Assembly (NCBI RefSeq): GCF_000209655.1
Contig: NC_015458.1
Span: forward strand, 1,922,001 to 1,986,000
Source: Pusillimonas sp. T7-7
Lineage (GTDB): Bacteria; Pseudomonadota; Gammaproteobacteria; Burkholderiales; Burkholderiaceae_B
Direction: 5' to 3'
Length of the DNA stretch: 64,000 nucleotides
A program made the translations under genes and the position numbers. This document shows, one piece after another, positions 6,651 to 58,882 of the stretch. Position 1 is the first letter of the stretch; every line of letters begins with the position of its first letter. Below the pieces are notes generated by a model. It searched no databases and was not told where the DNA came from. It worked only from the letters and a program-made list of their open reading frames with translations.

Positions 6651-6767
6651 GCGGGGAAATCCTGTAATGAATCGTTGATCGGAGCTTCGTCTGCCGCATT
6701 CTGGGCGAACCGACAAATTGCTATTCCTAACTTTAATCAAGTACGGCTGTCACACGAATGACGGCTC

Positions 6768-11755: not shown

Positions 11756-11767
11756 AGCATTTTTAAT

Positions 11768-12707: not shown

Positions 12708-12781
12708 GACTATCCCTCCATCGTGGCCGCAGAGGATAGTCTATATTATGTATATAATTAAATCAAAAATGCTCTAGTGCG

Positions 12782-12877
12782 CTAACCACCACTTACGTTG
12801 CCATGGTTGCCACCACGCGCCGCTTCAACAGCAATATTTAACGCAAGTATATTTGTCTGGAACGCCATGCTGTCAAT
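12782..12877 (-). pseudogene. Chemoreceptor (MCP) signalling-domain fragment
   Basis: Thirty-one codons read IDSMAFQTNILALNIAVEAA and then RGGNHGNVSGG before a stop. The first part is the hallmark hairpin-tip sequence of methyl-accepting chemotaxis proteins (FQTNILALNAAVEAARAG in relatives). No start, sensor or HAMP region is nearby, so this is a relic. It joins a czcI scrap on one side and the IS630 end on the other. Confidence 0.7.
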
Positions 12878-12905
12878 ACACGCTCACAGCTCCCAAGAGA
12901 CTTCT
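12874..12905 (-). pseudogene. Scrap of a czcI-like gene
   Basis: The stretch contains CAATACACGCTCAC and, four bases on, CCCAAGAG. Both match the intact czcI-like gene at 19464-19820 in the same order and orientation (there five bases apart). In translation it would read AVSVY and then a stop instead of VSVYCQ. It looks like a third, mostly deleted copy of the czcI repeat. Confidence 0.4.
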
Positions 12906-12958
12906 TTTGGGTGGTTTGTATGAACCGTTCGAGATCAGTTCCGGGCAGCGACGTACGC

Positions 12959-13585
12959 TTAAGAAGCTTCTGAACAGGCTTTAGTCTTGGCAGCCTCTTC
13001 AAGTATTTCCTTCCCGCCGTGGGCAGCGACACAGGCTACGGCTATACCGAGAAGTAGGTCCGGCGCATTGGAATCCAGCCACATTACGAGCGCGCCAGAG
13101 ATAACGATCCCAACGTTCGCGATCGAATCATTACTGGTGAAAATCGATGAGGCCTTGAAGTTCACGTCGTTGCCACGATGGCGCGACAACAGCCGTAGGC
13201 ATACTAAGTTCAAGCCGGCATTGACAGTTGCCATCACCATCATGGCAGCGCCAATGGGAGCCTCACCGCCGAAGAACCGACGAACCGCCTCAAAGAGCAC
13301 ACCGAGCGCCAACCCTATCAGCAACCAACCGGATAAGCGCGCGGCCATCACCTTAATATGTGCGGCACGACCGATGGCATAGAGGCTGACACCATAAACC
13401 GACGCATCGGCAAGGTTGTCCAAAGCCGCTGCAATTAACGCAGTTGATTCTGCCCACAATCCAACCATCGCCCCTGCCACACACTGCCCTAGATTGATGG
13501 TAAGCACCCACTTCAACGTACTTCGATCAAGATCTCGAATCTCATCGGCAGGCTTGCCGCTATCCTTCAGTTGGCTCTCGCTCAT
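12959..13585 (-). CDS. Cation diffusion facilitator family transporter
   Basis: A 208-residue inner-membrane protein with about six hydrophobic segments. The CDF metal site is recognisable as DNLADASVYG in the second helix (Asp-x3-Asp) and SNDSIANVG in the fifth. The usual cytoplasmic C-terminal domain is missing, leaving only a short tail, so this is a short CDF variant. These proteins export divalent cations such as Zn, Cd, Co or Pb by proton antiport. The nearby CadR/PbrR-type regulator suggests Cd/Pb/Zn, but no matching operator is visible at its own promoter. Confidence 0.82.
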   Translation of the reverse strand: MSESQLKDSGKPADEIRDLDRSTLKWVLTINLGQCVAGAMVGLWAESTALIAAALDNLADASVYGVSLYAIGRAAHIKVMAARLSGWLLIGLALGVLFEAVRRFFGGEAPIGAAMMVMATVNAGLNLVCLRLLSRHRGNDVNFKASSIFTSNDSIANVGIVISGALVMWLDSNAPDLLLGIAVACVAAHGGKEILEEAAKTKACSEAS

Positions 13586-14008
13586 ATTGCTCTCGGTCAG
13601 ACGGTCTCAGATAAAGGGCATTTACCATCATAGTTTGCGATACATTATCTGCCAAGATGGAATGGGCGGAACGTTTACGGCTGGCTGGACAACGTAGATG
13701 AATTTGCACAGGACAAACTCGCATCGTGCCTCGAGTCAATGGGGCAAGGATTGGGGAGCTAAATATCGCCGTAGGTATATGCAGGTGAGAAGCTGTCTAT
13801 AACGCAGCACACGCCATGCTGTCTTTGGCAAGACAGAAGTGGCATTCGTTGGGCAATCCCTCCATTTTTAGCACTGCGGATTTACGGGAGATTATCGTTG
13901 CAACGCTCTTACATGCAGTTGGGATCCTTTGCGCTTATCCACCTCTTATGCCCTGCCACCAGTGAGGCCACTACGGACCTTGACGGGGAGCACTCTCAAA
14001 AACAAACA
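13586..14008. other. Intergenic stretch without recognisable gene
   Basis: No ORF here has a ribosome site or recognisable product. Short frames on both strands (for example ending GLGS at about 13760 on the plus strand) match no family I know. It may be eroded island DNA. Confidence 0.4.
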
Positions 14009-43057: not shown

Positions 43058-45007
43058 TCATGGTGTAACGATGTTGAACCAGAACTCGAAATTATCGAGC
43101 ATGGCGAACATCTCTTCCACTTTGGCCTGATCACCCTGGATTTTGATATCGCCCTTACTTACCGCATCTTGAAAGGTAGTTTTCTTAAGCATGACTTGAT
43201 TGAGCGTATCGCGTGTCAGGACCAGACTGGCAGCCGCATCCTGTGCCTGTTTTCCTTCAGTATGATTTAGAACGCTATTCACCAGCTCAAGCTCATACTT
43301 TTGATTGGTGTCTGTAAAGTCAACATTGAGCACTATGTGCTTGCCTGCTGCCTGCTCGCGATTCAGACGCACACTGAAGTAGTCGAACAACATGTCCAGT
43401 GTCATGGCGCCAACGGTGTCCGGGCTGGCCGTGTCTGGTACTGGCAGTTTCTCAACGCCCTCGCGTAGCTCTTTGGCTCCAGTCAGATAGAAGTTGCGCC
43501 ACGGGCCGCTCTCTGCCTGGTAACCCATTTGCTCCAAGGCGTCAGCCTGCAAATTCTTGGCTTCCTGGTTCTGAGGATCAGCAAAGACGGCATAATTGAC
43601 GACCTCTGCCACCCAGCGATACTCGCCTTTCGCGTAGTATTCACGTGCTTTCTTGAGCAGCGCCTCGGTGCCTCCGAGCATCTCGACATAGCGTTTGGAC
43701 GACTCTTCGATTGGCAAGGTATGCAGCGTGGCCGGGTTACCGTTAAACCAACCCAGATACAGGACATAGGTGGCCCGCACGTTGTGGTTGACCGAACCGT
43801 AATAGCCGCGATTGGAAAATTTCGCGGCAATGGCTTCCGGTAGTTTTATCTGCTCGGCGATTTCTTCCTTGTTGTAGCCCATATTGGCTAAACGCAAGGT
43901 CTCATCGTTGATGTACCGATACATATCACGCTGCAAGCTGAGTTGTTCCTTGACCTGGTCTTGGCCCCACACTGGCCAGTGATGCATGGCATACATGACC
44001 TGGGCGTCGTCCCCCCACAATGCCAAGGCCTCGTTCAGATACTTGGACCATGCCAGCGGATCTCGAATCTTTGCGCCTCGAAGAGAGTACGTATTGTGCA
44101 AAGTGTGTGTAGAGTCTTCAGCAGTGTTTAGCGCCTTCTTCTCCTTAATGTAGTACAACATTTCTGCGGGCGCTTCACTGCCAGGCGCATATAGGAACTC
44201 ATAAGTCAGGCCGTCGATAGTGCGTGTTTCACCGGTCTTCTCGATGATGTCAGTAGGGGGAATGAGCGTGACCGTACCGGCTGATGTAGTGGTACCAAGT
44301 CCAGCACCAACTTGACCGGTTTCGCTTGGCGGCAGCAGATTGCCGTACATGTAGCTTGCTCGACGACTCATGGCAGTGCCTGCCATGACGTTCTCAGCTA
44401 CGGCGTGCTCAAGGAAGCCGAGAGGTGCATAGATCTTCACCTTGCCAGCCTTGACGTCTGCTTCGTCTACTACACCGCGCACACCACCGTAATGATCCAC
44501 ATGGCTATGTGTGTAGATGACCGCCACTACAGGTTTCTTGGGGCGGTGCTGGTAATACAGAGCTAATGCTGCCTTAGCGGTTTCAGTAGAAACCAGGGGG
44601 TCCATAATAGTGAGACCTTCCTTGCCCTCTACAATAGTCATATTGGACAAATCGAAATTGCGGACCTGATAAATACCGTCTGTGACCTCAAATAGACCTG
44701 AGATATTAAGCAACTGGGCCTGACGCCACAGACTAGGGTTGACTGTATCTGGGGCTGCAGCGCCTTCCTTGATGAATCCATACTTACCGGGATCCCATAC
44801 CAGATTATCGGTAGGGCCCTTGATAAGGCCGTCAGGTAGCGGTGCAATAAACCCTTTATGAGCGAGTTCGAAAGACGTCTTGTCCGAAAACGGTAACTCC
44901 TTCATGAGCTCGGCATTTGCCTTCTTGGTAGCCTCTTCGGCGGGCTTCGGACTTTCAGCGGCCCAACTGGGGCTGGTCAGGGCGAGGGAAAAACATATTG
45001 CCGCCAA
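43058..45007 (-). CDS. Exported alkylsulfatase of the SdsA1/type III family
   Basis: A 649-residue metallo-beta-lactamase-fold sulfatase that hydrolyses primary or secondary alkyl sulfates such as SDS in the periplasm. The zinc motif THSHVDHYGG is near residue 170, further ligands lie near NTAEDSTHTLHN, and the alkylsulfatase dimerisation and C-terminal SCP2-like domains follow (from about 390 and 520). The start is unclear: the only in-frame candidate is a TTG at 45007, yet the frame stays open upstream and would supply a basic signal-peptide start (HLLRWQSLAA). An out-of-frame ATG lies at about 45048. Confidence 0.88.
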   Translation of the reverse strand: MAAICFSLALTSPSWAAESPKPAEEATKKANAELMKELPFSDKTSFELAHKGFIAPLPDGLIKGPTDNLVWDPGKYGFIKEGAAAPDTVNPSLWRQAQLLNISGLFEVTDGIYQVRNFDLSNMTIVEGKEGLTIMDPLVSTETAKAALALYYQHRPKKPVVAVIYTHSHVDHYGGVRGVVDEADVKAGKVKIYAPLGFLEHAVAENVMAGTAMSRRASYMYGNLLPPSETGQVGAGLGTTTSAGTVTLIPPTDIIEKTGETRTIDGLTYEFLYAPGSEAPAEMLYYIKEKKALNTAEDSTHTLHNTYSLRGAKIRDPLAWSKYLNEALALWGDDAQVMYAMHHWPVWGQDQVKEQLSLQRDMYRYINDETLRLANMGYNKEEIAEQIKLPEAIAAKFSNRGYYGSVNHNVRATYVLYLGWFNGNPATLHTLPIEESSKRYVEMLGGTEALLKKAREYYAKGEYRWVAEVVNYAVFADPQNQEAKNLQADALEQMGYQAESGPWRNFYLTGAKELREGVEKLPVPDTASPDTVGAMTLDMLFDYFSVRLNREQAAGKHIVLNVDFTDTNQKYELELVNSVLNHTEGKQAQDAAASLVLTRDTLNQVMLKKTTFQDAVSKGDIKIQGDQAKVEEMFAMLDNFEFWFNIVTP

Positions 45008-45206: not shown

Positions 45207-46019
45207 TTAGTTAGGGAATTGCAAATTGAGCCCCATGTAGATCTGCCAATCCGGTTGTCCAGGGCCACGGCTCGCAACAGAGATCTGAGGCTCAATGAAA
45301 AAGTTGTAGACAATATCGTTATGCTTGACGACCTGCCCTATACCCAGGCCCAACGGCACGCTATAACTATCGTTCTCGAGGTTGTAGGTCATGATGGGTG
45401 TGGATCGCAGATAAGTGCCGCCTCCTAGCTGGTACATGGCGAACGGCTGGAACGCCACGAGATCAGCGTCTTCGCGATGGCTCGAACCGGCAAAGCTGCT
45501 TTGCCACGACAGCAGGTATCCGTACTGGAATTTGGGCGAGCTGGCATTGAACAGTACGTTCACCAGTCCAGCTGACCATTTTTCACTGCCAACCGAATTC
45601 CTGGTGGCGGTCGGCGCAGTGACCTGCGGCCCAAAGCCAAAACTGATGGCCGGGTTGCCCGTATCCATCAGATAAGCTGCAAATACATTCAGGTCGCCCA
45701 TGCCAGTGTCGTGCTGTCCGTCGACGGGAAACGAATTTACCGGCAACGAAGCTCGCATTAACCAGTTGCTCTCTCCGATAGAAAACGGTTGCGCGTAGCG
45801 CAACCAAAATTGGTTGGCATGCTCGCCTGTTTCCGTCTGGCGGCCGATGTAATAGTTCTGCATGTTGAAGGCCGTCATACTTGCCAAGGGGTTATTGGCC
45901 TGGGCGGCAGCGTTCGCCTCTGCTTGTGCGTGGGCGGAAATCATGCAGGTCAACCAAAGCGTGCAGGAAAGCCCAAAGATACCAAGCCAATACCACAGAG
46001 ATTGCTTTATGAGCCTCAT
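45207..46019 (-). CDS. Outer-membrane channel-like protein (phenol_MetA_deg type)
   Basis: A 270-residue protein with a signal peptide (ending SAHAQ) and a beta-rich barrel-like body. Motifs of the phenol-degradation MetA-like transporter family are visible (for example [10 protein letters not shown] and [12 protein letters not shown]), and the C-terminus is LNLQFPN. These are thought to be outer-membrane passage proteins for hydrophobic or aromatic substrates. It overlaps the upstream MFS/spermidine-synthase gene by 4 bases and could admit sulfate esters (inference). A second family member lies at 59152. Confidence 0.75.
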
Positions 46020-48550
46020 TGTCCTGCTCCACTCATGAACCAGCGTAAATAGGGATTATTCTGCGCCGCCCGCATCAAGGCAGCCGCGTCTGTCGCCCAT
46101 CCTTGCCGATCGCCCCGGTAGGCTGCCAGAGCGCTACGGTAAAAAAGATCGAGCTGTGCCCTTTCTTGTTTGATATTGTCAGCCAGAGCCTCGTTGCCGC
46201 CCTGCACAGGAGGTTCGCCACGCAATGCCAGCAATTCTGGCAAGGTGCGTACCAACTCACGTGGCCGCACCCAAGTGGCGTACTCGATGGCAGGAAAGTC
46301 ATCAGTTACAGCCGGGGTTTCGCCAACAAAATCCACCAAGCCGTCTCGATCGGTAACCCACGTTGCCAACAAGGCAGCAGGAGAATCGACTCCCACCTCT
46401 GTTAGGGCTGCGCGCAGGGTGGGCTGTGCATATCGTGCGGCGATAGTGGCCGCATCCAGCGTCAAAGGATCTTCTGAACCTATCAACAACATTTCATGCA
46501 ACTCGGTGCTCCAGAGCGATGCATGCGGAAAAATATCGATGAAGCTGGCCACCAGCGCACGCGTATCTTCCAAGTTCTGAGTGGGCAAAGGCAACCACTG
46601 CGCGACGACACCATGTTGATTCAGGCGCGAAGCCGCTAACGCATAGAAATCTCGCGAATAGAGATTTACCACGCCTGCAGCGGAAGGCGGCGGCGGCTCG
46701 AGGGTGATCAGGTCGTAGTGCTCTACGCTCGCAAGCAGTTCTCGCCGGCCATCACGCATGCGGATTTCCAGGCCGTGGTCCTGAGCCGCACCGTAGGTCC
46801 CCTGGAACAAGTGCGCAGCATGCAGCACGCCGGGGAGCAACTCAGCCACCACTCTGTGCTCCAAGCCGGGATAGCGTGACAACGCACCTGCGGTAATGCC
46901 GGTGCCATAGCCAATGACCAATGCGGAACGTGGTTCGCCTGCGTGTATGATGAGCGGCAGCAAGGATTGCAGCCGCATGTAGCGTAGTGAGGGCATGGCA
47001 TCACCCGAGTTCGACACGCCGTGGATATAAAGGCGCCGGAAACGATGATCACCTCTTCCGCTTTCCACTACAGCCACGGTACCGCCATGGCTCTCTTCGT
47101 AGAACACCAAGTTTTTGCCTTGTGCACCAGGCAGCAGGCGTGCAAGATGGTCCGCAGGCAGCACCCAGCCTCCAATAAGCACGGCCCCGCCTAGTGCCAA
47201 TACCAGCGTACGCATCATCGATGCAGCAGGCCGCGCTTGCCAGACCGCAATAACGCCTACCCCGCAGGCCGCTATGGCCAACAAGGCAAGACTGCGTATC
47301 GTACCCAGATACGGCAATAAAACAAACGCAGTAAGTGCAGTGCCGATAATGCCACCGAGCGTATTTCCCGCCAGCACCGCGCCGGCGCCTTTCCCTCGCT
47401 GCAGCGGCGGCACAGCAATACGTAACACCGCGGGGAAAGCGGCTCCAAGCAACAACGTGGGGAGCAACACAATGACCGACGCGGCAACGACAAAACGCGC
47501 ACTCATGGCGGCCAAACCACTATACGTCCAAGCACCGACCACCGATTCTGCCAAGCTCTGAGCGCTTATCAGCCACCGGCCCAACAAGGCGACTTCCATC
47601 AGTGCAAAAACACCCGCCCCCGCAATGAGCAAGCCAAATACCTGCCAGGGATTGCCCAGCTTATGCTCCCAGCGTGCATACAGCGCCGAACCGATAGCCA
47701 GGCCGGCCAGGTATACGGCCAGCACAATGGAAAATGCGAAGGCCCGCGTGCTCATGAACGGCACGATCATCTGCGACCACAGCACCTCGTACCCCAAGGC
47801 AATAGCGCCGGCCATTGTGTACAAGCCTATTGCCAGCCACGCCTTGGCTGGCAACGCTTGAGGCACATGGCTGCTCTCTTCTGCCTGATGTTTTTCCGGG
47901 GCAGACAGGCTATGCCTACTCAATAATCCAGCGCCCAAAGCGGCAATGAGGTTCAGGCCGGCTGCCGCCCATGCGCTCGCCTGTACGCCAAACACCGGGA
48001 TCAGGACGAATGCCGGCAATAGCGCACCGGCAATGGCTCCACAGGTATTAGCGGCATACAAGGTGGCGCCGGCGCGCCCGACCTTGCCGGCGCCGGTCGC
48101 TCGCAGCAGCACAGGCAAAGTGCCCCCCATCAGGAAAGGTGCTGCACCAATGACCAGGAGTACGGCCAGCCAGGCTAGTAGCGGGCTGTACTGTTCCACG
48201 CGCACGAATGGCAAAGCGCCATGGGCCAGCAATTGGGTCACGGCAACAGCCACCACGGCTATACCAATTTCTATCAGCGCGTACAGGCGCAAGGGACGCG
48301 TGGAACGATCTGCCCAGCGGCCGACCCACCAACTGCCTGCCGCCAGGCCGAGGAAAAACGCACTGACCGCGACCGCGATGGCATGCACTTCCACCCCCAC
48401 GATCAGAGACAGTTGCTTGACCCAAAGAATTTGAAAAATAAGCGCTGCCATACCTGAGAGCGCCAACAAGATGGACGGCACAGCAAGCCCTGTTACCGGC
48501 AACGAACTGGGCCTGGAAACACCTGTCAACACTTGCGCGGACACACTCAT
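46016..48550 (-). CDS. Fused MFS transporter / spermidine synthase-like protein
   Basis: An 844-residue fusion. The first 500 residues form about 14 membrane helices of an MFS-like transporter (for example [16 protein letters not shown]). The rest is a spermidine-synthase-like Rossmann domain with the nucleotide loop [13 protein letters not shown] and [14 protein letters not shown], where polyamine synthases have an acidic catalytic site. Such fusions are widespread but their substrate is unknown. It overlaps the channel gene downstream by 4 bases and lies 83 bases after the sulfatase gene. Confidence 0.8.
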
Positions 48551-48633: not shown

Positions 48634-50259
48634 TTATTTTCCCTGCTTCTTCGCTTGCTCGTCGAAGTACTGTTCGACCTTCCTGTCGACTTCAGCCTGA
48701 ACCTGGTCGACACTGAAACTTGCCGGACGTTGGCTGGGCGGCCACTCAACAAACGTCTGCAGGAACTTCGCCGCCTTCACCGAAGCCGCGAGGACCAGAT
48801 AGTCGTTCTTCACTAGCCAATCATAGTATTGGTTGGAAACGACATCTGCTCGCTCGTACGGGTCCATGCGCAGGTTGAACAGCTTTGGCACACGCAGACA
48901 CACGAAAGGATCTTTCCAGACAGCAAACCCACCAGGAGCCTGCTGCTCGCAGAAGACTGCCTTCCAGTTTTTATACCGCATGGCAACCAGCATGCCGTCG
49001 TCATTGAAATAATAGAAGTCCTCGCGAGCGCTCTCATCGGTCTTGCCTGTCAGATAGGCCAGCTGATTGTATCCATCCAGGTGCACTTTGTAGCTTCTAT
49101 CCGCACCCTCAGGCGTCCATCCCTTCAGCAGTCGATCTTTGACATCGGTATCGCCCACTGCGGCAAGCAAGGTAGGAAACCAATCCAGCCCCGATACGAT
49201 GCCGGTCTTAACCTCGCCCTCGGGAATATGCCCTGGCCAGCGGATCATGGCCGGCACACGGTAAGCGCCTTCCCAGTTTGAGTTCTTCTCGTTGCGGAAC
49301 GGTGTGGTTGCGGCATCCGGCCAACTGAACTGATTGGGTCCATTGTCCGTCGTATAAATTACGATGGTGTCGTCGGAGATACCCAAGTCATCAAGTTTTT
49401 TCAACAGCTTGCCAACGTCCTGATCATGCTCCCACATACCATCGGCATAAGGATTTCCGGGCATGCCGCTCTTGCCCTGATGCTCTGGACGGATATGCGT
49501 GTATACGTGCATCCGAGTGGTGTTCATCCACAAGAAGAATGGCTTGTCACCCTTGCCATGCTTGTCCAAATAATCGAGGGCGGCGCCGACGGTCTCGTCA
49601 TCGATCGTCTCCATGCGCTTGGCCGTTAGAGCCCCGGTATCTTCGATCTTGCCATCGGCCGAAGCCTTAATCACGCCGCGAGGCTTCTTGACATCCTCAT
49701 CGGCTTTCTGGGGCCAGTACGGGCGCTCGGGCTCCTCTTCGGCGTTGAGGTGATACAGATTGCCAAAGAACACGTCAAACCCGTGATTGGTCGGCAAGTA
49801 CTCATCTCGGTCACCCAGGTGGTTCTTACCGAACTGGGCAGTCATGTAGCCGTGCGACTTCAGAGCTTGAGCGATGGTGATGTCGCGGTCCTGCAAGCCG
49901 ACCGCCACACCTGGCATCCCAACCTTGGACAGTCCGGTACGGCGCGGTACCTGCCCAGTGATGAAACTGGACCGCCCCGCCGTGCAGCTGTTTTCGGCGT
50001 AGTAGTCAGTGAATATGGTGCCTTCCTCGGCAATACGATCGATATTGGGTGTCGTGTAACCCACCACGCCTTTACTATAGGCACTGATATTAGTTTGACC
50101 AATATCGTCCCCGAAGATCACGAGAATATTAGGCTTCTTGCCTGAGGCCTCGGCCTGTTGCTTGGACTGATCGTTCTGGGCCTGCGCTGACGCTCCCCCC
50201 ATCACGATAAGTCCGCTGGCGGCCACCAGCGCCGCCCCTAACCATCGTCTTGTTTTCAT
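48634..50259 (-). CDS. Exported type I (formylglycine) arylsulfatase
   Basis: A 541-residue sulfatase of the alkaline phosphatase superfamily. It has a Sec signal (ending ASAQA), metal aspartates in NILVIFGDDIGQTN and the activation site ENSCTAGRSSFITG (Cys-x-Ala-x-Arg), whose cysteine must become formylglycine. Later metal site TTDNGPNQFSW is present. It hydrolyses sulfate esters in the periplasm. The ATG at 50259 has GGAGAG upstream. The formylglycine-generating enzyme 8 kb upstream in the same run of genes is its probable activator. Confidence 0.92.
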   Translation of the reverse strand: MKTRRWLGAALVAASGLIVMGGASAQAQNDQSKQQAEASGKKPNILVIFGDDIGQTNISAYSKGVVGYTTPNIDRIAEEGTIFTDYYAENSCTAGRSSFITGQVPRRTGLSKVGMPGVAVGLQDRDITIAQALKSHGYMTAQFGKNHLGDRDEYLPTNHGFDVFFGNLYHLNAEEEPERPYWPQKADEDVKKPRGVIKASADGKIEDTGALTAKRMETIDDETVGAALDYLDKHGKGDKPFFLWMNTTRMHVYTHIRPEHQGKSGMPGNPYADGMWEHDQDVGKLLKKLDDLGISDDTIVIYTTDNGPNQFSWPDAATTPFRNEKNSNWEGAYRVPAMIRWPGHIPEGEVKTGIVSGLDWFPTLLAAVGDTDVKDRLLKGWTPEGADRSYKVHLDGYNQLAYLTGKTDESAREDFYYFNDDGMLVAMRYKNWKAVFCEQQAPGGFAVWKDPFVCLRVPKLFNLRMDPYERADVVSNQYYDWLVKNDYLVLAASVKAAKFLQTFVEWPPSQRPASFSVDQVQAEVDRKVEQYFDEQAKKQGK

Positions 50260-50308
50260 CACTACTCTCCCTGCCCTGAAGGGCGTTACATTTCGCTTCA
50301 AACACCTG

Positions 50309-51343
50309 CTACTGCTTCTCAAAGGAATACACTCGACTCCATTCCGCCCTCATGTCTACGACTGTCCAGCCACGGCGGTTGGCCTCATCCAGCGCCTTGT
50401 CCAGGCGGCCGACCGTGGAGTTTCTGTCGTAAGCCCACTCACGCTGTGCATCGGTGTGATGCACCAGTCCCGCAAAGCGCTTGCCTGCACCTGCAGTAGT
50501 CCACTGCAACATTTGTAGGTCTCCATCGGAATTTCCGAAAGCAAGGATGGGCCTGCGGCCTATATATCGATTGATCGCCACGGGTTTGCCGGGCCCATCA
50601 TCGTTAAACTCGAGTTTGGGTTGGCGCACCAGCCTGGGTTTGCCGTCGCTCATCTCGAAAGTCGTTACGAAACTGCTGCCGATTACCTGTTCAGGAGGGA
50701 TGTCGTAAGCCTCTTCGGCCCAGGTACGCATAAACTCAACGCCACCACCAGACACGATGTAGACCTTGAAATCGCGTGCGCGCAGATAGTCAAGCAATTC
50801 ACGCATAGGCGCGTAGGTCATGCTGGTATAGGGTTGGTTGAAACGCGGATGCCGGGCCGTAGACACCCACTCGATCACGCTCTGCGCGAATTCGTCAGTA
50901 CTCATATTGGTGTGCGTCACACCCACAATCTTCAGCAGGCCTGACTGACCGGCTTTAGCCAGCGTCGCCTTATCGCCATCAAGGGCAGCCTTAAATGGCT
51001 GTTGCTGTGCCCATTCCGGGTGGCTGGGCGCCATGGCCTTGAGGCGATCCAGCGCAAATACACCCTGGAAATACAAGGGTTGCTCGCTCCACAGCGTGCC
51101 ATCGTTGTCGAATACCGCTACACGGTCTTCAACTGCGACGAAATCCGGGCTGTCTGGCTGCGTAACGGCGCGCACGAAGTCAACAATGGCAGTGCGCGAA
51201 GGGCCATCATTCCAGGACGACAGCTCGGTAGCTGCTGTATCACCGTTAGAAGTACCCGCGCATGCTGCCAGCAGCATAGATAATGCAACCGTTCCAGCCA
51301 AGGCGGCCCAGCGCCGCAACGTCAACCGCTGCAATGTCTTCAT
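50309..51343 (-). CDS. Lipoprotein HAD-family phosphatase
   Basis: A 344-residue HAD hydrolase related to phosphoserine phosphatases. The N-terminus is a lipoprotein signal (LSMLLAACAG), so it is anchored in the envelope. HAD motifs are complete: DNDGTLW near residue 79, Ser in VYIVSGGG, and FGNSDGD. Exported HAD enzymes of this kind often sit with sulfatases and FGE-like genes; substrate unknown. The ATG at 51343 overlaps the batD stop as ATGA, tying the gene to the Bat operon. Confidence 0.85.
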   Translation of the reverse strand: MKTLQRLTLRRWAALAGTVALSMLLAACAGTSNGDTAATELSSWNDGPSRTAIVDFVRAVTQPDSPDFVAVEDRVAVFDNDGTLWSEQPLYFQGVFALDRLKAMAPSHPEWAQQQPFKAALDGDKATLAKAGQSGLLKIVGVTHTNMSTDEFAQSVIEWVSTARHPRFNQPYTSMTYAPMRELLDYLRARDFKVYIVSGGGVEFMRTWAEEAYDIPPEQVIGSSFVTTFEMSDGKPRLVRQPKLEFNDDGPGKPVAINRYIGRRPILAFGNSDGDLQMLQWTTAGAGKRFAGLVHHTDAQREWAYDRNSTVGRLDKALDEANRRGWTVVDMRAEWSRVYSFEKQ

Positions 51344-52728
51344 AACCTGCCCCTTTTGCGCATGTCGCGCGATGTATATGCCGGATTCCGGACGGGATTC
51401 AATGACGCAGGCAGTGCATAGGCCCGCGCTGTCATATGCCTTGCCTGCCAGATCCGCCGCCATTGACTCGAGGCTGCCGCCAGTCGGTGGCGCCAGGAAG
51501 CATCGCCCGGGTTCGCCCCATAGGCCTGACGCAGTATGGTGGCAGCCACCTCGCTTGCCGGCTCGCCCAGAGGCGCGACTGCCGCGCGTAGATCGTAGGC
51601 ACCCGTCACCCGCCACAGCCACTGATAAAAGGCACTCAATGCTGCAGTATTTTGTGTGGCTTCCCGGCGCCAGGCTCGCCAATGCCAGGGTTCACCAGCA
51701 CGCCGCCGATCGCGCACGAGCATCGCCCAGGAACGCAAGCGACGTGTGCAGCGTCTCGACCATGGCCAGCACAGCCATGCAAGCAGCAACACCAGCACCG
51801 CGCTGATCGCCCAAGCCGGCGAAGCCGCCGGTAACACCCAGCGCAGATTGTGTCGCAGCTTCGCCAAGTCTTCCGTCAGGGAAAAAGGCTGCTCCACCAC
51901 CGGCGCGGCCGCTACCGTGAACGTACGGCCTGGCAGTTCCTGCTGCTGCAATTGCCCGCTGGCGTTATCGCGCCAATGCATGATCACAGGCGGCAGGCTG
52001 ACCTCACCCGCTTGGCTGGGGATGTAATCGGCGCTGTCTATGCGTTGTCCACCGACAAAACCGCCGCGACCATCTGTCAGCGTTGTGACCTGTGGCTCAT
52101 GCGGGTAGCGCTTGAACCCCGGCACGTCGTTAAGGGCTGCGGCAGGCAATAACATGGCCTGCACCCCTTCGGCTCGTTGCATAATGCTGCGCGTTACTCG
52201 TCCACCAGTCATAAGCGGGTCTGGCGCAAGCGCGTAGTTTTGCGAAATTGTCAGTTGGCTGGCAGCCACTTCTCCGCCGGAAGGTCCGGCGGATTTGCTG
52301 CCCGCCACTACATTGAACGAAAAAGGTTCGCTACTGTCTGTGGCGGCTACGCCTCCGGGCCCGATCTGGGCACTGACGGTGAGCGCCGGTATCTGCAGCG
52401 TGCCCGCTTGGGTTGGACTGAGCACATAGGTGTAGCGCAAACCGCTATATGCCACCCCATCTTTCTTTTCATGCACAATGGCGCCCTGGCCGGATGGAGG
52501 CGTTACCATGGCGCCGGGCAATTCCAAGGTTGGCAACTGCGGCGGTTGTGTAAACCAGGCAGGCGTCATGACCTGCAATTCCAGTTGCACCGTCGCACCA
52601 ACCTGCACTTGCGCAGGCGCCTGCAGCTTCGCCGTCACGTGCAGCGAGGGCGCGTCTTGTGCGCAGGCGATGGCAGCCACGCACAATCCTGCAACAGCCT
52701 GAAAAATCTGACGCCAGCACATCATCAT
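51340..52728 (-). CDS. batD: BatD-like protein
   Basis: A 462-residue protein: signal peptide (ending IACAQ), tandem immunoglobulin-like BatD domains in the periplasm (residues about 25-290), one membrane helix (about 325-345, AISAVLVLLLAWLCW), and a basic cytoplasmic tail. BatD works with MoxR, BatA and BatB proteins in envelope homeostasis; its biochemical role is not settled. It overlaps the upstream VWA/TPR gene and the downstream HAD gene by 4 bases each. Confidence 0.82.
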   Translation of the reverse strand: MMMCWRQIFQAVAGLCVAAIACAQDAPSLHVTAKLQAPAQVQVGATVQLELQVMTPAWFTQPPQLPTLELPGAMVTPPSGQGAIVHEKKDGVAYSGLRYTYVLSPTQAGTLQIPALTVSAQIGPGGVAATDSSEPFSFNVVAGSKSAGPSGGEVAASQLTISQNYALAPDPLMTGGRVTRSIMQRAEGVQAMLLPAAALNDVPGFKRYPHEPQVTTLTDGRGGFVGGQRIDSADYIPSQAGEVSLPPVIMHWRDNASGQLQQQELPGRTFTVAAAPVVEQPFSLTEDLAKLRHNLRWVLPAASPAWAISAVLVLLLAWLCWPWSRRCTRRLRSWAMLVRDRRRAGEPWHWRAWRREATQNTAALSAFYQWLWRVTGAYDLRAAVAPLGEPASEVAATILRQAYGANPGDASWRHRLAAASSQWRRIWQARHMTARAYALPASLNPVRNPAYTSRDMRKRGRL

Positions 52729-54257
52729 GGCTGCCCTCCCGCTGCCGCATCCTCGGCAGCAAACTTGCCACGCAGAAAGCGTGCCGGGGAAATCGTCAGA
52801 TTGCGCAACCAAATGTCTTCCGATGCAGCCTGCGCCACAGGCACCTTGACCATCTTTCCGGTTTGCGCAGTCTTATCATTAATGGAACGATCGGGAGGCT
52901 CAGCCTGCTCTCCTTGCTCCTCCTGGCTCATGGCATCAAGCAACCTTGACACAACATCGCGATTGAATACCGCCGGCTTCCATGCCGGCCTTAACGACAA
53001 GGCCTGGTCGTAGGCGGCCAGCGCAGCATCATATTGCCTTAGATGTACCTGGGTGTTCCCAACGTAAAAGTAGCCTTCGGCTGTTTGCACAAGGGCAAAC
53101 GCCGCCAATGCGGTCTCATAGTCGCCGGCTTCGTAGGCGGCTCGTCCTTTCCAGTATGGGTCGCGAAAGTGTTGCACGGCATCGTCATAACGGCCATGTT
53201 CAAACGCCATTCGCCCCTGCTGATCGGGAGTCAGGAATGCATTTTCGAGCGTACCCGCGTATGCATCCGGCGGCTGTACCAGCATCACCGTTGCCAGCAG
53301 ACACGCCGTCCATGCAATATTCCAGCCACGACGAACAGTCAGCAACACCAATAGCGCCAGCGGCCAGCACAACCAATAACCCGCATCCTTCCAGTGAATG
53401 GAACCGGATTGAGCATCTTGTACCGTGCGGAAATGTTGTTGCGCATGTAGCACGATCCAGTCCAGATCATCATCGGAATTACCGGTCAAGCTACCGAGTG
53501 ATGCACCAGCAGCCTTTGTCAGGCCGCGCAAGGCTGAGGCGTCAATACCCGCCTGGGCGTCATTGGCATGCCCTACCACCATAATTAGTATCTGCATGTC
53601 GCGTGCGGCCTGCGCCCGTTCTTGCACAGCATCCAGCTGTTGCCCGGCGGCCCCATCGGTCATGAGCAACAAGGTACCACCCACCCGCTCCGCTGCCAGC
53701 ATGCTTGCGCCCAGCTCAATCGCGCCTGCTGCGTCTCGTCCCGGATGCTCGATCAGATCAGTGGATAAGGCCTGAATGAAGAGGTCCAACAGATTGAGAT
53801 CATCGGTGGGCGGCAATACCAGATGGCTGCTGCCTGAATAGGCAATCAGTCCGGTTTTCGCGCCCGTACGACGCACAGCAAGGTCGCGCAGCGTATGCTT
53901 GGCCGCTTCCAGCCTTGTAGGCGGCACATCGGCGCCGTCCATCGAGGCAGATAAATCTACAGCCACAATCAACGGCGCCACGTTATCCAGAAATGTCGGT
54001 TCATCACGCTGCCAGGCTGGCCCGGCGGCCGCGATTGCTCCCACAGCCAGAATCAGCGCCAACAGATCTATCGGCCTCGGACCACGGCTGCCATGCACGT
54101 GCACTGTTAAATAGGGCAGCAAGGCCGGTGCGATCCGGCTGTCTCGCCCATACGCTCCACGTTCTCCGCGCCGAGCCCACCACAGCCATCCCGCCGGGAA
54201 CACCCCAAGCAGCCACCACGGACGTATGAAATGAAAAGCGCTCAGATCGAATTCCAT
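52725..54257 (-). CDS. BatB/BatC-like VWA and TPR fusion protein
   Basis: A 510-residue membrane protein joining BatB and BatC functions. Two N-terminal helices flank a short loop, and a von Willebrand A domain follows with the metal site VDLSASMDG near residue 100. A further helix lies near 310, then TPR repeats (GRAAYEAGDYETALAAF, YDAALAAYDQALSLRPAWKP) end the protein. VWA domains hold protein partners through a divalent metal. It overlaps batA and batD, so the module is translated as a unit. Confidence 0.85.
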   Translation of the reverse strand: MEFDLSAFHFIRPWWLLGVFPAGWLWWARRGERGAYGRDSRIAPALLPYLTVHVHGSRGPRPIDLLALILAVGAIAAAGPAWQRDEPTFLDNVAPLIVAVDLSASMDGADVPPTRLEAAKHTLRDLAVRRTGAKTGLIAYSGSSHLVLPPTDDLNLLDLFIQALSTDLIEHPGRDAAGAIELGASMLAAERVGGTLLLMTDGAAGQQLDAVQERAQAARDMQILIMVVGHANDAQAGIDASALRGLTKAAGASLGSLTGNSDDDLDWIVLHAQQHFRTVQDAQSGSIHWKDAGYWLCWPLALLVLLTVRRGWNIAWTACLLATVMLVQPPDAYAGTLENAFLTPDQQGRMAFEHGRYDDAVQHFRDPYWKGRAAYEAGDYETALAAFALVQTAEGYFYVGNTQVHLRQYDAALAAYDQALSLRPAWKPAVFNRDVVSRLLDAMSQEEQGEQAEPPDRSINDKTAQTGKMVKVPVAQAASEDIWLRNLTISPARFLRGKFAAEDAAAGGQP

Positions 54258-55270
54258 GCGCCCTCCTTCGTGTCCAATTTATTTGCCGAGCTGGCGGGAC
54301 GGCGGCCACGCCAGGACATCAGCACAGCCAGGCCATGCCAAAGCAACAACAGGCACAGCGCCAGACCTAGCGGTACCCAGAAGAAATCCTGCTTGGGCTG
54401 ATGCCGCAATGTTTTGACTTCCCGTGGCGTGATGCGATCCAGTGTGGCATAGACATCGTGCAGTGCGGCGCCGTCTTGTGCCTGGAAAAACTGCCCTCCG
54501 GAGGCGCTCGAGATGCCACGTAAAGTATCGAAATCGACTTGGTCGTCTCCGCTTGCCGTCGGACTGCCAATGCCGATCGTGTGTACAGTGACATGATGCT
54601 GCGCAGCCAAATTTGCCGCCCGCAGGGGCGGCACAGCGCTACCCGTATCATTGCCATCAGTCAGCAGAATAAGGACCTTGTCGCGCTCTTGCGCGGAATC
54701 CAGCATACGGATGCCCATGCCGATCGCATCGCCAATAGCCGTGTTGGGACCCGCCATGCCGACGGCGGTATGGTCGAGCAGCAGCCGCAAAGACTTATGA
54801 TCCCGCGTCAGGGGCGCTTGAGGAAAGGCGCCCGTGCCGAACACGATAAGCCCCAGCCGGTCGTCAGTGCGCTTGTCGATGAAATCGGCCACAACGGCCT
54901 TGACTACGGTCCAACGCGACACCTGCCGGTCCTGTGCGTCGCGGAAATCCTGACTATCCATCGATTGCGAGATATCCAGGGCAAGCAGGATGTCGCGCAC
55001 AGGTTCCGTATGCGTCAGTGGCGGTTCTACCCATTGCGGACGAGCCAGTGTAACGACCAGCAGCAGCCAAACAACAATATTGAGCCATCGCTGCATGCCA
55101 CCGATAGGTGCTGCGGGACGCGAAGGAGATTTCCCCGTGAGCTGCGCCATGGTGTCAAAAAACGGCAAACGCAACGCCTTCCTGCCCTGCATATAGGGAG
55201 GCAGCCAGTAATAGACCACCAGCGCCAGTGGCGCAGCAGCCAGCACCCAAACGTACTCAAGCCGCCACAT
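54242..55270 (-). CDS. batA: BatA-like VWA-domain membrane protein
   Basis: A 342-residue protein with two N-terminal helices (about 5-22 and 60-78), a VWA domain with the MIDAS motif ALDISQSMDS near residue 105 and further metal residues in GPNTAIGDAIG and LLTDGNDTG, and a last helix (about 300-320). It is the classical BatA layout. The ATG at 55270 (MWRLEYV) overlaps the DUF4381 stop by 14 bases; an earlier start at 55303 is rejected. Confidence 0.87.
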   Translation of the reverse strand: MWRLEYVWVLAAAPLALVVYYWLPPYMQGRKALRLPFFDTMAQLTGKSPSRPAAPIGGMQRWLNIVVWLLLVVTLARPQWVEPPLTHTEPVRDILLALDISQSMDSQDFRDAQDRQVSRWTVVKAVVADFIDKRTDDRLGLIVFGTGAFPQAPLTRDHKSLRLLLDHTAVGMAGPNTAIGDAIGMGIRMLDSAQERDKVLILLTDGNDTGSAVPPLRAANLAAQHHVTVHTIGIGSPTASGDDQVDFDTLRGISSASGGQFFQAQDGAALHDVYATLDRITPREVKTLRHQPKQDFFWVPLGLALCLLLLWHGLAVLMSWRGRRPASSANKLDTKEGAWNSI

Positions 55271-55760
55271 GATGATGCTCCATCCACCGGCGACTGGCTG
55301 CAATCAGCCGCTGCAGTGCTGTGGGGTCCAGCGAGCAAACCGCTTCGTCTGGACCGTAGGCTAGTGTTGTCAGCAAGCGTGTGCTGCCATCGGGAAACGA
55401 CGCAGACTTGGCGCTGCGGCTCAAGTATGCCAACCAGGCATCGCCCCCCATCACACCGACCTGCGCTGATCGATCTTGATTCTGGGCTGCCAGCGCAGCA
55501 CGCTTGAGCAACCCCGGTAATTCGCGCGCCGCAAGCGGGTTGCCAACAACAGAGTCTATCAAGGCATCCAGCTCTACCAGCGCCTGACGCCTGTATAGAT
55601 TGCGGCGATGGCGCCGCCAATATGCTGCAGCAGCCAAGATGCAAGCTGCAAGCAGTAATCCGGCCACAACAAGCCAGCCCCAGGTTTGAGGCCAATACGA
55701 TATGGGAGCCGGCAGAGGCAGCTCGCGCAGTTGATCCAGACCGGGCAGAGTGTCGCTCAT
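55257..55760 (-). CDS. DUF4381 membrane protein of the Bat module
   Basis: A 167-residue protein with one N-terminal membrane helix (about residues 27-48) and a cytoplasmic helical domain (RQALVELDALID near residue 60). DUF4381 proteins sit between DUF58 and BatA genes in MoxR operons across Proteobacteria, as here, and probably help assemble the VWA complex; no activity is known. It overlaps the DUF58 gene by 4 bases. Confidence 0.8.
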   Translation of the reverse strand: MSDTLPGLDQLRELPLPAPISYWPQTWGWLVVAGLLLAACILAAAAYWRRHRRNLYRRQALVELDALIDSVVGNPLAARELPGLLKRAALAAQNQDRSAQVGVMGGDAWLAYLSRSAKSASFPDGSTRLLTTLAYGPDEAVCSLDPTALQRLIAASRRWMEHHHVAA

Positions 55761-56698
55761 GGCCGCGCTCCAGCCTGTTGCTTGCCAAGCTCTCGCCGCA
55801 ATTGCACGAGTTCATCATCAACCGTATTGATGGACAGCAGAGGTACACGACTGAGCCGCAGCAGATCGGCCACTTGACGCAGACGGGCACTAAAGAAATC
55901 GGCCAGCGGCTGACGCTCACGTTGCCTTCCAACGGCGATTTCAAGCTGTAGCTCACCCTGTGTAACCACCACCCGACCGTGCTTCGGCAGATTCTGTGCC
56001 ATCGGGTCGTATACCAGGACGGCGACTACGTCGTTATGCGCGGCAAGCAGCCTCAGTAAACGGAGGGTATCGTCGTCAGCGCCAGCGAAATCACTGATTA
56101 TGCAAACCAGGCAGTCGTGCGGTGCATGCTTCAATGTGCCGCGCAATGCAGCATTGAGCACAGGCGCTGCAGGATTTTCCGGATACTGAGCTGACAGCGC
56201 AGCGTTAACACGCACTACTTCGGCCAGCAAGGCCCGTACTTGATCACGGCTGCGTAAAGGCTTGATTGCCTGGACGCCCTCATCGCTGAAGACCAGACCG
56301 CCCACACGATCACCAGCGCGATAGGCCATCCAGGCCGCCAGGGCAGCCAAACGCGCAGCCACGGCAGATTTGAAAAAGCGCACCGAACCGAAAAACATGG
56401 TCATGCGCTGATCCACCACAACCATTGTCGGACGATCACGCTCTTCGGTGTACGACCGCACATACGCTTTGCCGTAGCGCAGTGATGCCCGGGGATCCAG
56501 TTGCCGCAGGTCATCGCCCGCCACATAGCGCCGCAACTCTGAAAAATCCAGACCACGCCCTCTTAACCGCGACCCATGCTGCCCCGCCAGCACGCTACCT
56601 AATGGTTGGCGGGCGATAAATGACAAGCCGCTCACGGCGGCCTCCAGCGCCATCAATTCAGAAAGCGGGGGATAGACGGGGTGAGAAGTGCGTGCCAT
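55757..56698 (-). CDS. DUF58 VWA-like protein
   Basis: A 313-residue cytoplasmic protein of the DUF58 family with the signature RGLDFSELRRYVAGDDLR near residue 50, DPRASLRYGKAYVRSY, and a divergent VWA fold (VVVDQRMTMFF). DUF58 proteins are regular partners of MoxR ATPases and may act as adaptors. It starts 8 bases after the MoxR stop and overlaps the DUF4381 gene. Confidence 0.87.
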   Translation of the reverse strand: MARTSHPVYPPLSELMALEAAVSGLSFIARQPLGSVLAGQHGSRLRGRGLDFSELRRYVAGDDLRQLDPRASLRYGKAYVRSYTEERDRPTMVVVDQRMTMFFGSVRFFKSAVAARLAALAAWMAYRAGDRVGGLVFSDEGVQAIKPLRSRDQVRALLAEVVRVNAALSAQYPENPAAPVLNAALRGTLKHAPHDCLVCIISDFAGADDDTLRLLRLLAAHNDVVAVLVYDPMAQNLPKHGRVVVTQGELQLEIAVGRQRERQPLADFFSARLRQVADLLRLSRVPLLSINTVDDELVQLRRELGKQQAGARP

Positions 56699-56706
56699 TG
56701 CTACTC

Positions 56707-57681
56707 CTATGCTGGCACCGCGACCGTATCCAGCAAACGGTCGATAATCTGTTCAGAGTTGACGCCATCGGCCACGGCATCGTACGACAAATGCAGCCTG
56801 TGGCGCAGTACGGCGTGCGCAACAGCACGCACATCGTCAGGCGCAGTAAAGTCGGCGCCCGCCAGCCAGGCATGCACACGTGCTGCGCGGTCAAGTGCAA
56901 TAGCCCCACGCGGACTCGCGCCAATCTGTATCCAATGTCCCAAGTCAGTGTCGAATTCAGCAGGTCTGCGGGTGGCATTGACCAGATCCACAATGTATCT
57001 ATCAACAGCTGGTGCTACATGCAAGACAGCCGCCTCTGCCCGGCAGGCAAAGAGTGCTTCCTGTGAAAGCCGCGTGGCAATGACATCCTTAGCCGATGCT
57101 CCGCCGCGTAGCATGGCCAGCATAGCTATCTCGTCGTCGGCATCGAGATAGCCCAGGCGTATTTTCATAAAAAAACGATCCATCTGCGCTTCGGGCAATG
57201 GATAAGTGCCCTCTTGCTCTATAGGATTTTGGGTGGCCAGCACCATAAAGAGTTCGGGCATGGGCCGGGTAACTCCGCCTACCGTAATTTGCCTTTCTTC
57301 CATAGCCTCAAGCAAGGCCGACTGCACTTTCGCGGGAGCGCGATTGATTTCGTCCGCCAGGATAAGGTTGCCGAATAGAGGCCCCTGTTGGAACTCGATA
57401 CGATGACGCCCTTCGGCATCCTGTTGCAGGACCTCTGCGCCGGTGATATCCGAAGGCAGTAAATCGGGAGTGAACTGGATACGGCTCATCGTTGCTTCCA
57501 TGTGCGAAGCCAAAGCTTTGACCGTACGTGTTTTGGCAAGACCGGGCAAACTTTCCAGCAGGACATGGCCATCAGCGAGCAGAGCGATCAGCACATTGCG
57601 GATGACCTCTGATTGACCCAAGACCTCGGCTGCAATCGCCCGTTCCAACGCCAGAATATCGTCACGACTTGCCATATCCAT
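56707..57681 (-). CDS. MoxR-family AAA+ ATPase
   Basis: A 324-residue AAA+ chaperone-like ATPase. The P-loop is ESLPGLAKTRTVK near residue 48, Walker B is LILADEINRAP, and NPIEQEGTYPLPEAQMDRF holds sensor and arginine-finger residues. MoxR proteins remodel or activate partner proteins, often inserting cofactors, with VWA proteins as adaptors. It is first of the Bat module. The start may be 57681 or 57675 (MASRDDIL). It lies 55 bases after the FGE gene. Confidence 0.9.
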   Translation of the reverse strand: MDMASRDDILALERAIAAEVLGQSEVIRNVLIALLADGHVLLESLPGLAKTRTVKALASHMEATMSRIQFTPDLLPSDITGAEVLQQDAEGRHRIEFQQGPLFGNLILADEINRAPAKVQSALLEAMEERQITVGGVTRPMPELFMVLATQNPIEQEGTYPLPEAQMDRFFMKIRLGYLDADDEIAMLAMLRGGASAKDVIATRLSQEALFACRAEAAVLHVAPAVDRYIVDLVNATRRPAEFDTDLGHWIQIGASPRGAIALDRAARVHAWLAGADFTAPDDVRAVAHAVLRHRLHLSYDAVADGVNSEQIIDRLLDTVAVPA

Positions 57682-57736
57682 CCTTCATGAGCTTTGTCTT
57701 GCAGGCGACGGATCCCCACGACCGCCGCCCCTGACC

Positions 57737-58882
57737 TCAGCGACTGGCAATAGTGTTCTTGCGAGCCTGGGCCAACTTCCATTGTTCGGTTGACATTACC
57801 GTGCGGAACCCCAAATGCGACATGCTATTGAGCGGATCCGTACCTCGCCGTGCACTGGTCCGGTAACTGATGCAATAGGTGTCACTGCACAGAAATGAGC
57901 CTCCACGCGTCACCCGCTTGGGGGCAGATACGGGTACATTGCCATCATCGGGATCAAAGCTGTCAGCGGGGCCAGTTGGGTCGACCGGCATATTTTTTGA
58001 CTCTGCCTGGATGGTGAAGGCGTCAGCCCGATACCAGTCGGCAGTCCATTGCCACACGTTGCCCGCCATATCGAATAAACCATAGTCGTTGGCGGGAAAG
58101 CTGCCCACCGGTGTGGTTCCGACCTGGATTTTTTCGTCTTTGACGACAGGGAACGGCTGTTGCTGCTGGGTATCCCATATATTGGCCATGGGCTTGCCAT
58201 CAGGGCTGAGCTCGTTGCCCCAACTATACGTGGCTTGCTCAAGCCCTCCGCGTGCTGCGTATTCCCACTCAGCCTCAGTGGGCAGGCGTTTTCCCGCCCA
58301 TTTGGCATACGCTTGCGCGTCTTTATAAGAAACCTGGACGACCGGGTGGTCATCTTTGCCTTGAATACTGCTGCCCGGGCCTTGCGGATGACGCCAATTA
58401 GCGCCGGGGATGAAGCGCCACCAGCGGGAGTAGTCGCGTAGCGAAACCTCTGATGCCGTGCCAGTGAACACCATGGCGCCTGGTACGAGCAAGCTGTCGT
58501 CCGGGCGAGGAGTGCCAGGCGGCAACTGGGGTTTAAGGTCTTCCCAAAGGGGTTTCTGCTCAGCCGTCGTGACATAGCCCGTTGCTTCTACAAAACGACG
58601 GAACTCGGCGTTCGTGACGTCGTGGACATCCATCCAGAAACCACTGACACGTATTTGATGTGCCGGCCGCTCGTTGGGTTGCGAAAGCTTATGGCTGTTA
58701 CCCATAAGAAATTCGTCGCCGGGGACCCAGGCCATGTTGGCCGGACCGTTCTTTCCATCCCCGAGTTTGACTGTGGGTGCGGATGAGCCGGAAGCCGATG
58801 AGTAGGCAACATATGTGCCTACTGCCCCCGCTGAGGCAAGAATCGCAATCACCGATAAAATGATCTTTGCATGCTGCTTCAC
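57737..58882 (-). CDS. Exported formylglycine-generating enzyme family protein
   Basis: A 381-residue sulfatase-modifying factor. An N-terminal signal or anchor (residues 5-28) precedes an FGE-sulfatase domain (MAWVPGDEFLMGN onward). The catalytic cysteine pair is kept: RGGSFLCSDTYCISYR near residue 340, matching the Cys336/Cys341 pattern of FGE, which binds Cu(I) and oxidises sulfatase cysteine with O2. Other family blocks LPTEAEWEYAARGG and DMAGNVWQWTADW are clear. It heads the MoxR-Bat-HAD-sulfatase series and is apparently active outside the cytoplasm. Confidence 0.88.
   Translation of the reverse strand: MKQHAKIILSVIAILASAGAVGTYVAYSSASGSSAPTVKLGDGKNGPANMAWVPGDEFLMGNSHKLSQPNERPAHQIRVSGFWMDVHDVTNAEFRRFVEATGYVTTAEQKPLWEDLKPQLPPGTPRPDDSLLVPGAMVFTGTASEVSLRDYSRWWRFIPGANWRHPQGPGSSIQGKDDHPVVQVSYKDAQAYAKWAGKRLPTEAEWEYAARGGLEQATYSWGNELSPDGKPMANIWDTQQQQPFPVVKDEKIQVGTTPVGSFPANDYGLFDMAGNVWQWTADWYRADAFTIQAESKNMPVDPTGPADSFDPDDGNVPVSAPKRVTRGGSFLCSDTYCISYRTSARRGTDPLNSMSHLGFRTVMSTEQWKLAQARKNTIASR

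Follow-up and report, generated by a model that had tools for sequence, protein, structure and literature searches.

The window analysed here, a stretch of 64,000 nucleotides from Pusillimonas sp. T7-7 (NC_015458.1, positions 1,922,001 to 1,986,000), holds a cluster of ten genes which seems to combine an exported sulfatase and its partners, namely a HAD-superfamily lipoprotein, a formylglycine-generating enzyme (FGE) and a fused MFS/spermidine-synthase-like protein, with what would be a dedicated six-gene MoxR-Bat machine (Bat, Bacteroides aerotolerance; Table 1). The linkage between such MoxR-Bat genes and this sulfatase is real and wide. A sequence-only reading of the same DNA had described nine codirectional genes from FGE to the sulfatase; all nine are indeed encoded on the minus strand at 48634-58882 and Pfam backs every label, but the tenth gene, encoding the MFS/spermidine-synthase-like protein, had been overlooked. 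The overlaps claimed there between the neighbours from DUF58 to HAD were also found, with 4, 14, 16, 4 and 4 nt at the likely starts, while gaps of 55 nt, 8 nt and 49 nt separate FGE from MoxR, MoxR from DUF58 and HAD from the sulfatase, respectively. Where the starts given by the open reading frame (ORF) tool run upstream, the likely starts were chosen by us (BatD 52728, HAD 51343, sulfatase 50259, BatA 55270). With MoxR, DUF58, BatA, BatB/C and BatD in a single run the cluster belongs to the Bat-type MoxR operons. A scan of the window for promoters and terminators gave counts no higher than chance.

Table 1. Genes of the sulfatase-MoxR-Bat cluster with their positions in the window and the supporting matches.
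Gene product	Position	Strand	Evidence
FGE with N-terminal hydrophobic anchor or signal	57737..58882	-	PF03781 7.5e-80; PDB relatives 5nxl/6s07 E ~1e-68
MoxR AAA+ ATPase	56707..57681	-	AAA_3 7.9e-62
DUF58 protein (MxaS-like)	55757..56698	-	PF01882 1.2e-36
DUF4381 protein, one hydrophobic segment	55257..55760	-	PF14316 5.3e-30; hydropathy
BatA-like VWA membrane protein	54242..55270 (ORF extendable to 55303)	-	PF00092 1.5e-20; MIDAS DISQS + TDG
BatB/BatC fusion, VWA + TPR	52725..54257	-	PF13519 (VWA_2) 6.5e-14; TPR_2 1.1e-9
BatD-like protein, N- and C-terminal hydrophobic segments	51340..52728	-	PF13584 2.7e-9; hydropathy
HAD-superfamily lipoprotein (LLAAC lipobox, DNDGT, GNSDGD)	50309..51343	-	PF12710 2e-12; solved relative 4ovy E 2.9e-111
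Exported type I sulfatase, C92TAGR formylglycine motif	48634..50259	-	PF00884 1.7e-50; nearest solved chain 7aj0 3.8e-56
Fused MFS/spermidine-synthase-like membrane protein	46016..48550	-	MFS_1 1.1e-8, Spermine_synth 2.6e-5; NF037959 1.1e-30

Studying the motifs reveals that both VWA proteins of the window retain DxSxS and TDG and thus an intact MIDAS (metal-ion-dependent adhesion site), that MoxR retains a P-loop variant (GLAKT) as well as Walker B (LILADE), and that the HAD protein retains DNDGT. Among relatives the MoxR P-loop pattern is found in 75/75 and a strict Walker B pattern in 60/75 sequences, the BatA MIDAS in 72/72 and the BatB/C DxSxS in 45/71. The catalytic C-x4-C pair of FGE is present (Cys332/Cys337) and recurs in 67 of 68 longer tblastn FGE matches, the one other match not covering it. 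Eleven sulfatase residues, D51, D52, C92, A94, R96, K145, H147, H251, D305, N306 and K325, which we take to serve in metal binding and catalysis, are conserved in 117/118 matches, a few of which are counted twice because fetched stretches overlap. In an extra sulfatase copy of Vibrio owensii (L125, near 14975) serine replaces the cysteine of the formylglycine motif, which is present in the other 117 matches. The predicted sulfatase model (mean pLDDT 62.7) is informative for the overall fold only, and Foldseek ranks sulfatases first with 7aj0 on top. Judged by hydropathy and by eye only, the HAD lipobox, a signal-peptide-like start of the sulfatase and an N-terminal hydrophobic stretch of FGE point to export signals or anchors in these three proteins. 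In the window genome the cluster MoxR is the single AAA_3 gene over the cut-off, and none was over the cut-off in three genomes of the same genus that were searched.

To follow the linkage across wider taxa, the best 80 of 582 relatives from a sulfatase alignment scan of named-species genomes were used and their loci mapped by tblastn. MoxR was found in 40 of these 80 loci, which is a lower bound because contig ends cut some loci (L081, for example, begins inside the Bat genes). When only loci with full 10-kb flanks are counted, MoxR is present in 34 out of 51, and 33 of these 34 contain at least three Bat genes. The linked sulfatases belong to Burkholderiaceae, Pseudomonas, Rhizobiales, Vibrionaceae, Shewanella, Halomonas and Bacteroidota (Achromobacter, Pseudomonas, Pandoraea, Cupriavidus, Ralstonia, Variovorax, Caballeronia, Camelimonas, Rhizobium, Bradyrhizobium, Nitrobacter, Brucella haematophila, Vibrio, Photobacterium, Aliivibrio, Shewanella, Halomonas, Mucilaginibacter and Cerina). 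The 40 linked loci give 21 gene strings, some of them distinct only by truncation or extra copies. The block MoxR-DUF58-DUF4381-BatA-BatB/C-BatD is mostly intact, while the genes for sulfatase, HAD, FGE and MFS lie upstream, downstream or divergent; in two loci (L109, L110) MoxR-DUF58 is set apart from the remaining Bat genes.

Because several Vibrio loci lack DUF4381 in the tblastn maps, MoxR was chosen as the marker for a phylum sample of 319 genomes, in which we looked for the sulfatase (E <= 1e-100) and MoxR (E <= 1e-95) within 12 kb, start to start. The sulfatase occurs in 32 of the 319 genomes including that of the window, and in 18 of them (the window genome and 17 others from 11 genera) MoxR lies within this distance. 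Random placement would lead to 0.39 linked genomes over all 32, with a maximum of 5 in 200,000 simulations. A search for linkage across genomes had been proposed by the sequence-only reading as a check of its suggestion, and the association of MoxR/Bat genes with the sulfatase thus turns out to be conserved.

Within the window's own family (200 genomes) 21 genes for a window-type FGE (at least 72% identity, or split in two) were found, including that of the window. Seventeen of these, again with the window, head a run with MoxR, plus Bat genes where the contig permits; three of the four remaining ones (L043, L044, L046), all from one genus, combine FGE and HAD, and MoxR is missing from the stretch fetched for them. 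DUF4381 (E <= 1e-12) is present in 17 family genomes and lies beside a window-type FGE in 16 of them, the exception being G003 (contig C6); in G180 a gene of this comparison is apparently split over two contigs. Most full family cassettes also contain the MFS/spermidine-synthase-like gene. In Achromobacter kerstersii the cassette is naturally split, with FGE-MoxR-Bat-HAD-MFS at one locus (L176) and a sulfatase elsewhere in the genome (L076). Two candidates were rejected: the FGE-sulfatase-MFS set of L037, the fourth of the FGE genes left over above, says little as an independent Bat-less locus, as it directly adjoins, back to back, the full cassette of the same genome, about 5 kb from the FGE of that cassette (L036), and a HAD-sulfatase gene fusion suggested by a script for L049 and L050 was discarded since the translation shows a stop between the two.

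As controls, 20 loci with DUF4381 were fetched, 19 from other families of the class and one (L174) from the window's family, with L170 being off-centre. Nineteen of them have MoxR, and not one of the 20 has a sulfatase, FGE, HAD or MFS gene in the 20 kb fetched. Sulfatase-linked MoxR, DUF58 and BatA proteins also cluster on their trees. For MoxR a quick tree was built from 107 sequences, among them L192-L195 and others that represent second copies from linked genomes. The label "linked", given when a sulfatase, HAD, FGE or MFS gene is located within 12 kb, requires 6 changes on this tree, compared to a mean of 34.6 when shuffled; sampling adds to this contrast, as linked sequences were gathered largely via the sulfatase and unlinked ones via DUF4381. 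The corresponding values are 6 versus 31.7 for DUF58 and 5 versus 26.9 for BatA. The window clade of the MoxR tree is linked in 28/28 cases and the main clade of ordinary gammaproteobacterial loci is unlinked in 27/27. An additional MoxR with less than 50% identity is carried by 19 of the 33 linked genomes searched, and 13 fetched loci of such MoxR genes, from linked as well as unlinked genomes (L196-L203, L208-L212), have no adjoining sulfatase.

Known MoxR systems share parts of this organization. Like the window cluster, the mxaRSACKL operon adjoins the genes of a periplasmic enzyme and encodes MoxR, a DUF58 protein, two VWA proteins and one TPR protein; however, its client, the Ca2+-dependent methanol dehydrogenase, is a pyrroloquinoline quinone (PQQ) dehydrogenase, its VWA and TPR parts are separate genes, and MxaR shares just 31% identity with the window MoxR. 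No PQQ dehydrogenase was found when the proteins at 43058-63383 were scanned, the sulfatase being present there instead of methanol dehydrogenase genes. For a direct comparison the mxa cluster of a Methylobacter psychrophilus genome (L221) was used, in which MxaF and MxaI were recognized by Pfam and the remaining genes were named by position, following what we take to be the mxa gene order. Here MxaR has an AAA_3 domain, MxaS DUF58, MxaC and MxaL VWA domains and MxaK a weak TPR match. MxaR and MxaS match MoxR and DUF58 of the window, MxaC aligns with BatA (E 3.1e-12) and MxaL with the VWA part of BatB/C (1.6e-6), and a weak similarity connects MxaK with the TPR part of BatB/C (E 6.5e-5 over 37 columns), so that in total five of the six mxa accessory proteins are homologous. 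Insertion of Ca2+ is carried out by MxaA, MxaK and MxaL. The mxa cluster has been described as including genes for Ca2+ insertion (PMC3615186).

Bat operons of ordinary gammaproteobacterial loci have the same order as the window, MoxR-DUF58-(DUF4381)-BatA-BatB/C-BatD, but differ by the absence of sulfatase, FGE, HAD and MFS near the 20 controls and by MoxR, DUF58 and BatA proteins which are largely separate on the trees. The combination of a MoxR ATPase with a VWA partner acting on an enzyme is also known from NorQ/NorD, RavA/ViaA and CbbQ/CbbO, although systems of the NorQ/NorD type are not known to contain DUF58, DUF4381, BatD or membrane VWA proteins. NorQD, for which metal insertion is described (PMC13036017), has one VWA partner, and according to PMC9976466 NorQ and NorD are most likely cytosolic. 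Finally, MoxR, VWA and FGE-fold (FGS) domains also co-occur in the MoxR-vWA ternary conflict systems, where the FGE fold is presented as a C-type-lectin-fold effector domain (PMC7159879), whereas the FGE of the window keeps the catalytic cysteines and lies beside a true sulfatase.

Taken together, the cluster encodes a MoxR machine of the Bat type, its likely client being a specific exported enzyme, and we infer a role of the machine in sulfatase maturation. Type I sulfatases contain a divalent metal, commonly Ca2+, at their DD...DN site. According to their predicted topology MoxR and DUF58 would be cytoplasmic, while BatA, BatB/C and BatD would reside in the inner membrane with the VWA domains most likely facing the periplasm, as described for the Bat-type VWA domain of BB0173 (PMC5700661). 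ATP hydrolysis by MoxR could then be transmitted via the membrane proteins and lead to remodelling or metal loading of the exported sulfatase, and possibly of the HAD lipoprotein. The most likely step would be insertion of the active-site Ca2+ after export, in the way mxaRSACKL acts on the periplasmic methanol dehydrogenase, with formylglycine being made separately by FGE. The mxa homology, the metal insertion by NorQD, the periplasmic BB0173 domain and the conserved metal-site residues together favour a sulfatase that would be metal-loaded or remodelled after its export. We judge the chances to be about even that a dedicated Bat-type machine remodels or metal-loads the sulfatase, possibly together with the HAD lipoprotein, most likely with Ca2+ and with FGE acting separately. 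The narrower proposal of a trans-envelope metallochaperone, loading Ca2+ into the exported formylglycine sulfatase and/or activating its HAD partner, can be put forward only tentatively.

Several observations weigh against a sulfatase-serving machine. Fourteen of the sulfatase-containing genomes in the phylum sample are unlinked (in one of these, G737, the sulfatase is located at a contig start), and eight of the fourteen have no MoxR at E <= 1e-95; therefore not every member of this sulfatase group needs the machine. In a class sample of 274 genomes, mostly one per family, DUF4381 was over the cut-off in 129, the sulfatase in 18 and FGE in 15, and none of the 17 other genomes with a sulfatase (E <= 1e-60) has it beside DUF4381, as judged by eye among the DUF4381 matches listed, so that co-location was seen only inside the family. 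Two FGE loci (L060, L061) carry sulfatases with 46% identity to that of the window and no Bat genes. Among 16 loci gathered by MoxR similarity with the anchor sulfatase unlinked (L176-L191), nine have any partner, seven of the 16 have a sulfatase and seven have none of the partners. The sixth mxa protein, MxaA, matches neither BatD (hhalign E 0.023) nor DUF4381 (0.11) significantly. Distances from MoxR correlate better for HAD than for the sulfatase (0.87 versus r 0.60; 45 loci), and likewise better for MFS (0.87 versus 0.78; 29 loci).

The linkage could also reflect co-regulation only, if genes for sulfate-ester scavenging and an envelope-stress Bat module were induced together and moved together while their products do not act on each other. 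Such clusters can spread as a block, sulfatase and MoxR distances are correlated (0.63; 59 loci), an SdsA-type alkylsulfatase and an AraC regulator are encoded nearby, and Bat operons have been linked to stress resistance (PMC11834572). However, the association survives many gene orders, divergent ones included, it is absent from all 20 control loci, and the 13 loci described above with a MoxR of less than 50% identity do not share it. We consider mere co-regulation unlikely, while it deserves to be kept in mind.

Less probable still, although supported by the distances, is that the HAD lipoprotein or the MFS/spermidine-synthase-like protein is the client of the machine and the sulfatase only a neighbour in the pathway. 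Since the MoxR distances track HAD and MFS better than the sulfatase, HAD may be the nearer partner; in the window its gene overlaps the end of batD. With full flanks HAD was found in 26/34 MoxR loci versus 3/17 others, and the MFS gene, present in 23 of the 80 sulfatase loci, occurs in 21/40 with and in 2/40 without MoxR, though the flanks are unequal here. In three Vibrio genomes HAD is encoded slightly farther out, 8-18 kb from MoxR. On the other hand, 13 of the 40 loci lacking MoxR likewise have HAD beside the sulfatase, and eight full-flank loci, five of them from Vibrio, combine MoxR and sulfatase with neither HAD nor FGE within 10 kb, three of these having HAD just beyond.

According to the sequence-only reading the machine serves the sulfatase-FGE pair, with the copper requirement of FGE as one argument. 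The sulfatase part of this proposal agrees with the linkage, whereas the pairing with FGE and copper is not supported in detail: by tblastn only 13 of the 34 MoxR-linked loci with full flanks contain FGE, compared to 3 of 17 unlinked ones, so that FGE goes with MoxR less than HAD does, and MoxR is missing from all 20 further FGE loci (L054-L073; a paralogous FGE type in most of them, L056 being a 6-kb contig). Paralogous FGEs of this second type occur in many family genomes. That of the window genome (63% identical; L054:7988-13450) is flanked by two divergent sulfatase genes, whose products have about 725 aa, and lies beside the type II secretion genes gspE/gspF. FGE loci without MoxR, this one included, indicate that Bat genes are not tied to FGE-sulfatase pairs in general; the machine associates with this sulfatase subfamily and HAD.

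A PF03781 protein, by eye a lipoprotein in most cases, is encoded 9-19 kb from a linked MoxR in seven Vibrionaceae genomes (L226-L231, L206), in three of them beside a HAD gene, and the C-x4-C pair is present in none of the seven. Together with proteins from Cerina (about 15 kb away) and Alginatibacterium (adjoining MoxR), nine out of nine such candidates had to be rejected as FGEs for lack of this motif. In 29 genomes, chosen mostly because the locus lacks FGE, a PF03781 protein is encoded somewhere in 26 and nowhere in three; in the genome of L139, where MoxR lies beside the sulfatase, no PF03781 match was obtained at E <= 1e-20. A machine serving the FGE step itself, by loading FGE with copper or by keeping the sulfatase unfolded for formylglycine formation, is thus very improbable, even though FGE heads the operon in the window and in most family cassettes, requires copper activation (PMC4505483) and has fold relatives near MoxR in the Vibrionaceae. 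Two Rhizobiales cassette FGEs (L092:17929-18894, L099:7387-8430) have no N-terminal hydrophobic stretch, suggesting that lineages may differ in where the FGE resides.

Searches of the open-licence literature gave no description of this link between MoxR and a sulfatase. The biochemical function of the widespread Bat operons has been called elusive (PMC3557215); the conserved and yet rearranging association with one exported enzyme family points to a client open to assay. If the proposed metallochaperone is confirmed, an orphan Bat machine would gain its first client, and mxa and the sulfatase-linked Bat operons would represent two branches of one family for the maturation of calcium enzymes. 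If the machine serves the sulfatase, some bacterial sulfatases would require more than formylglycine for activity, which would also bear on the metal supply to exported Ca2+ enzymes.

Downstream of the cluster the window encodes a protein without Pfam match (45207-46019) and the SdsA-type alkylsulfatase with a metallo-beta-lactamase fold (43058-45007), both suggesting a wider sulfate-ester locus. The control locus L174 holds genes for relatives of the 45207-46019 protein (87%) and of the window's bestrophin-like protein (71%). In the Vibrio locus L128 a multihaem cytochrome c with TPR repeats (11660-13978) is encoded between sulfatase and MoxR, with a MauG-type peroxidase and sensor proteins nearby. 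Tens of kb from the cluster the window also contains a copper/respiratory region with a multicopper oxidase, a CusS-type sensor kinase and a metal P-type ATPase (4788-6740, 10340-11755 and 21975-24275), as well as CcmF and a COX1-family oxidase subunit.

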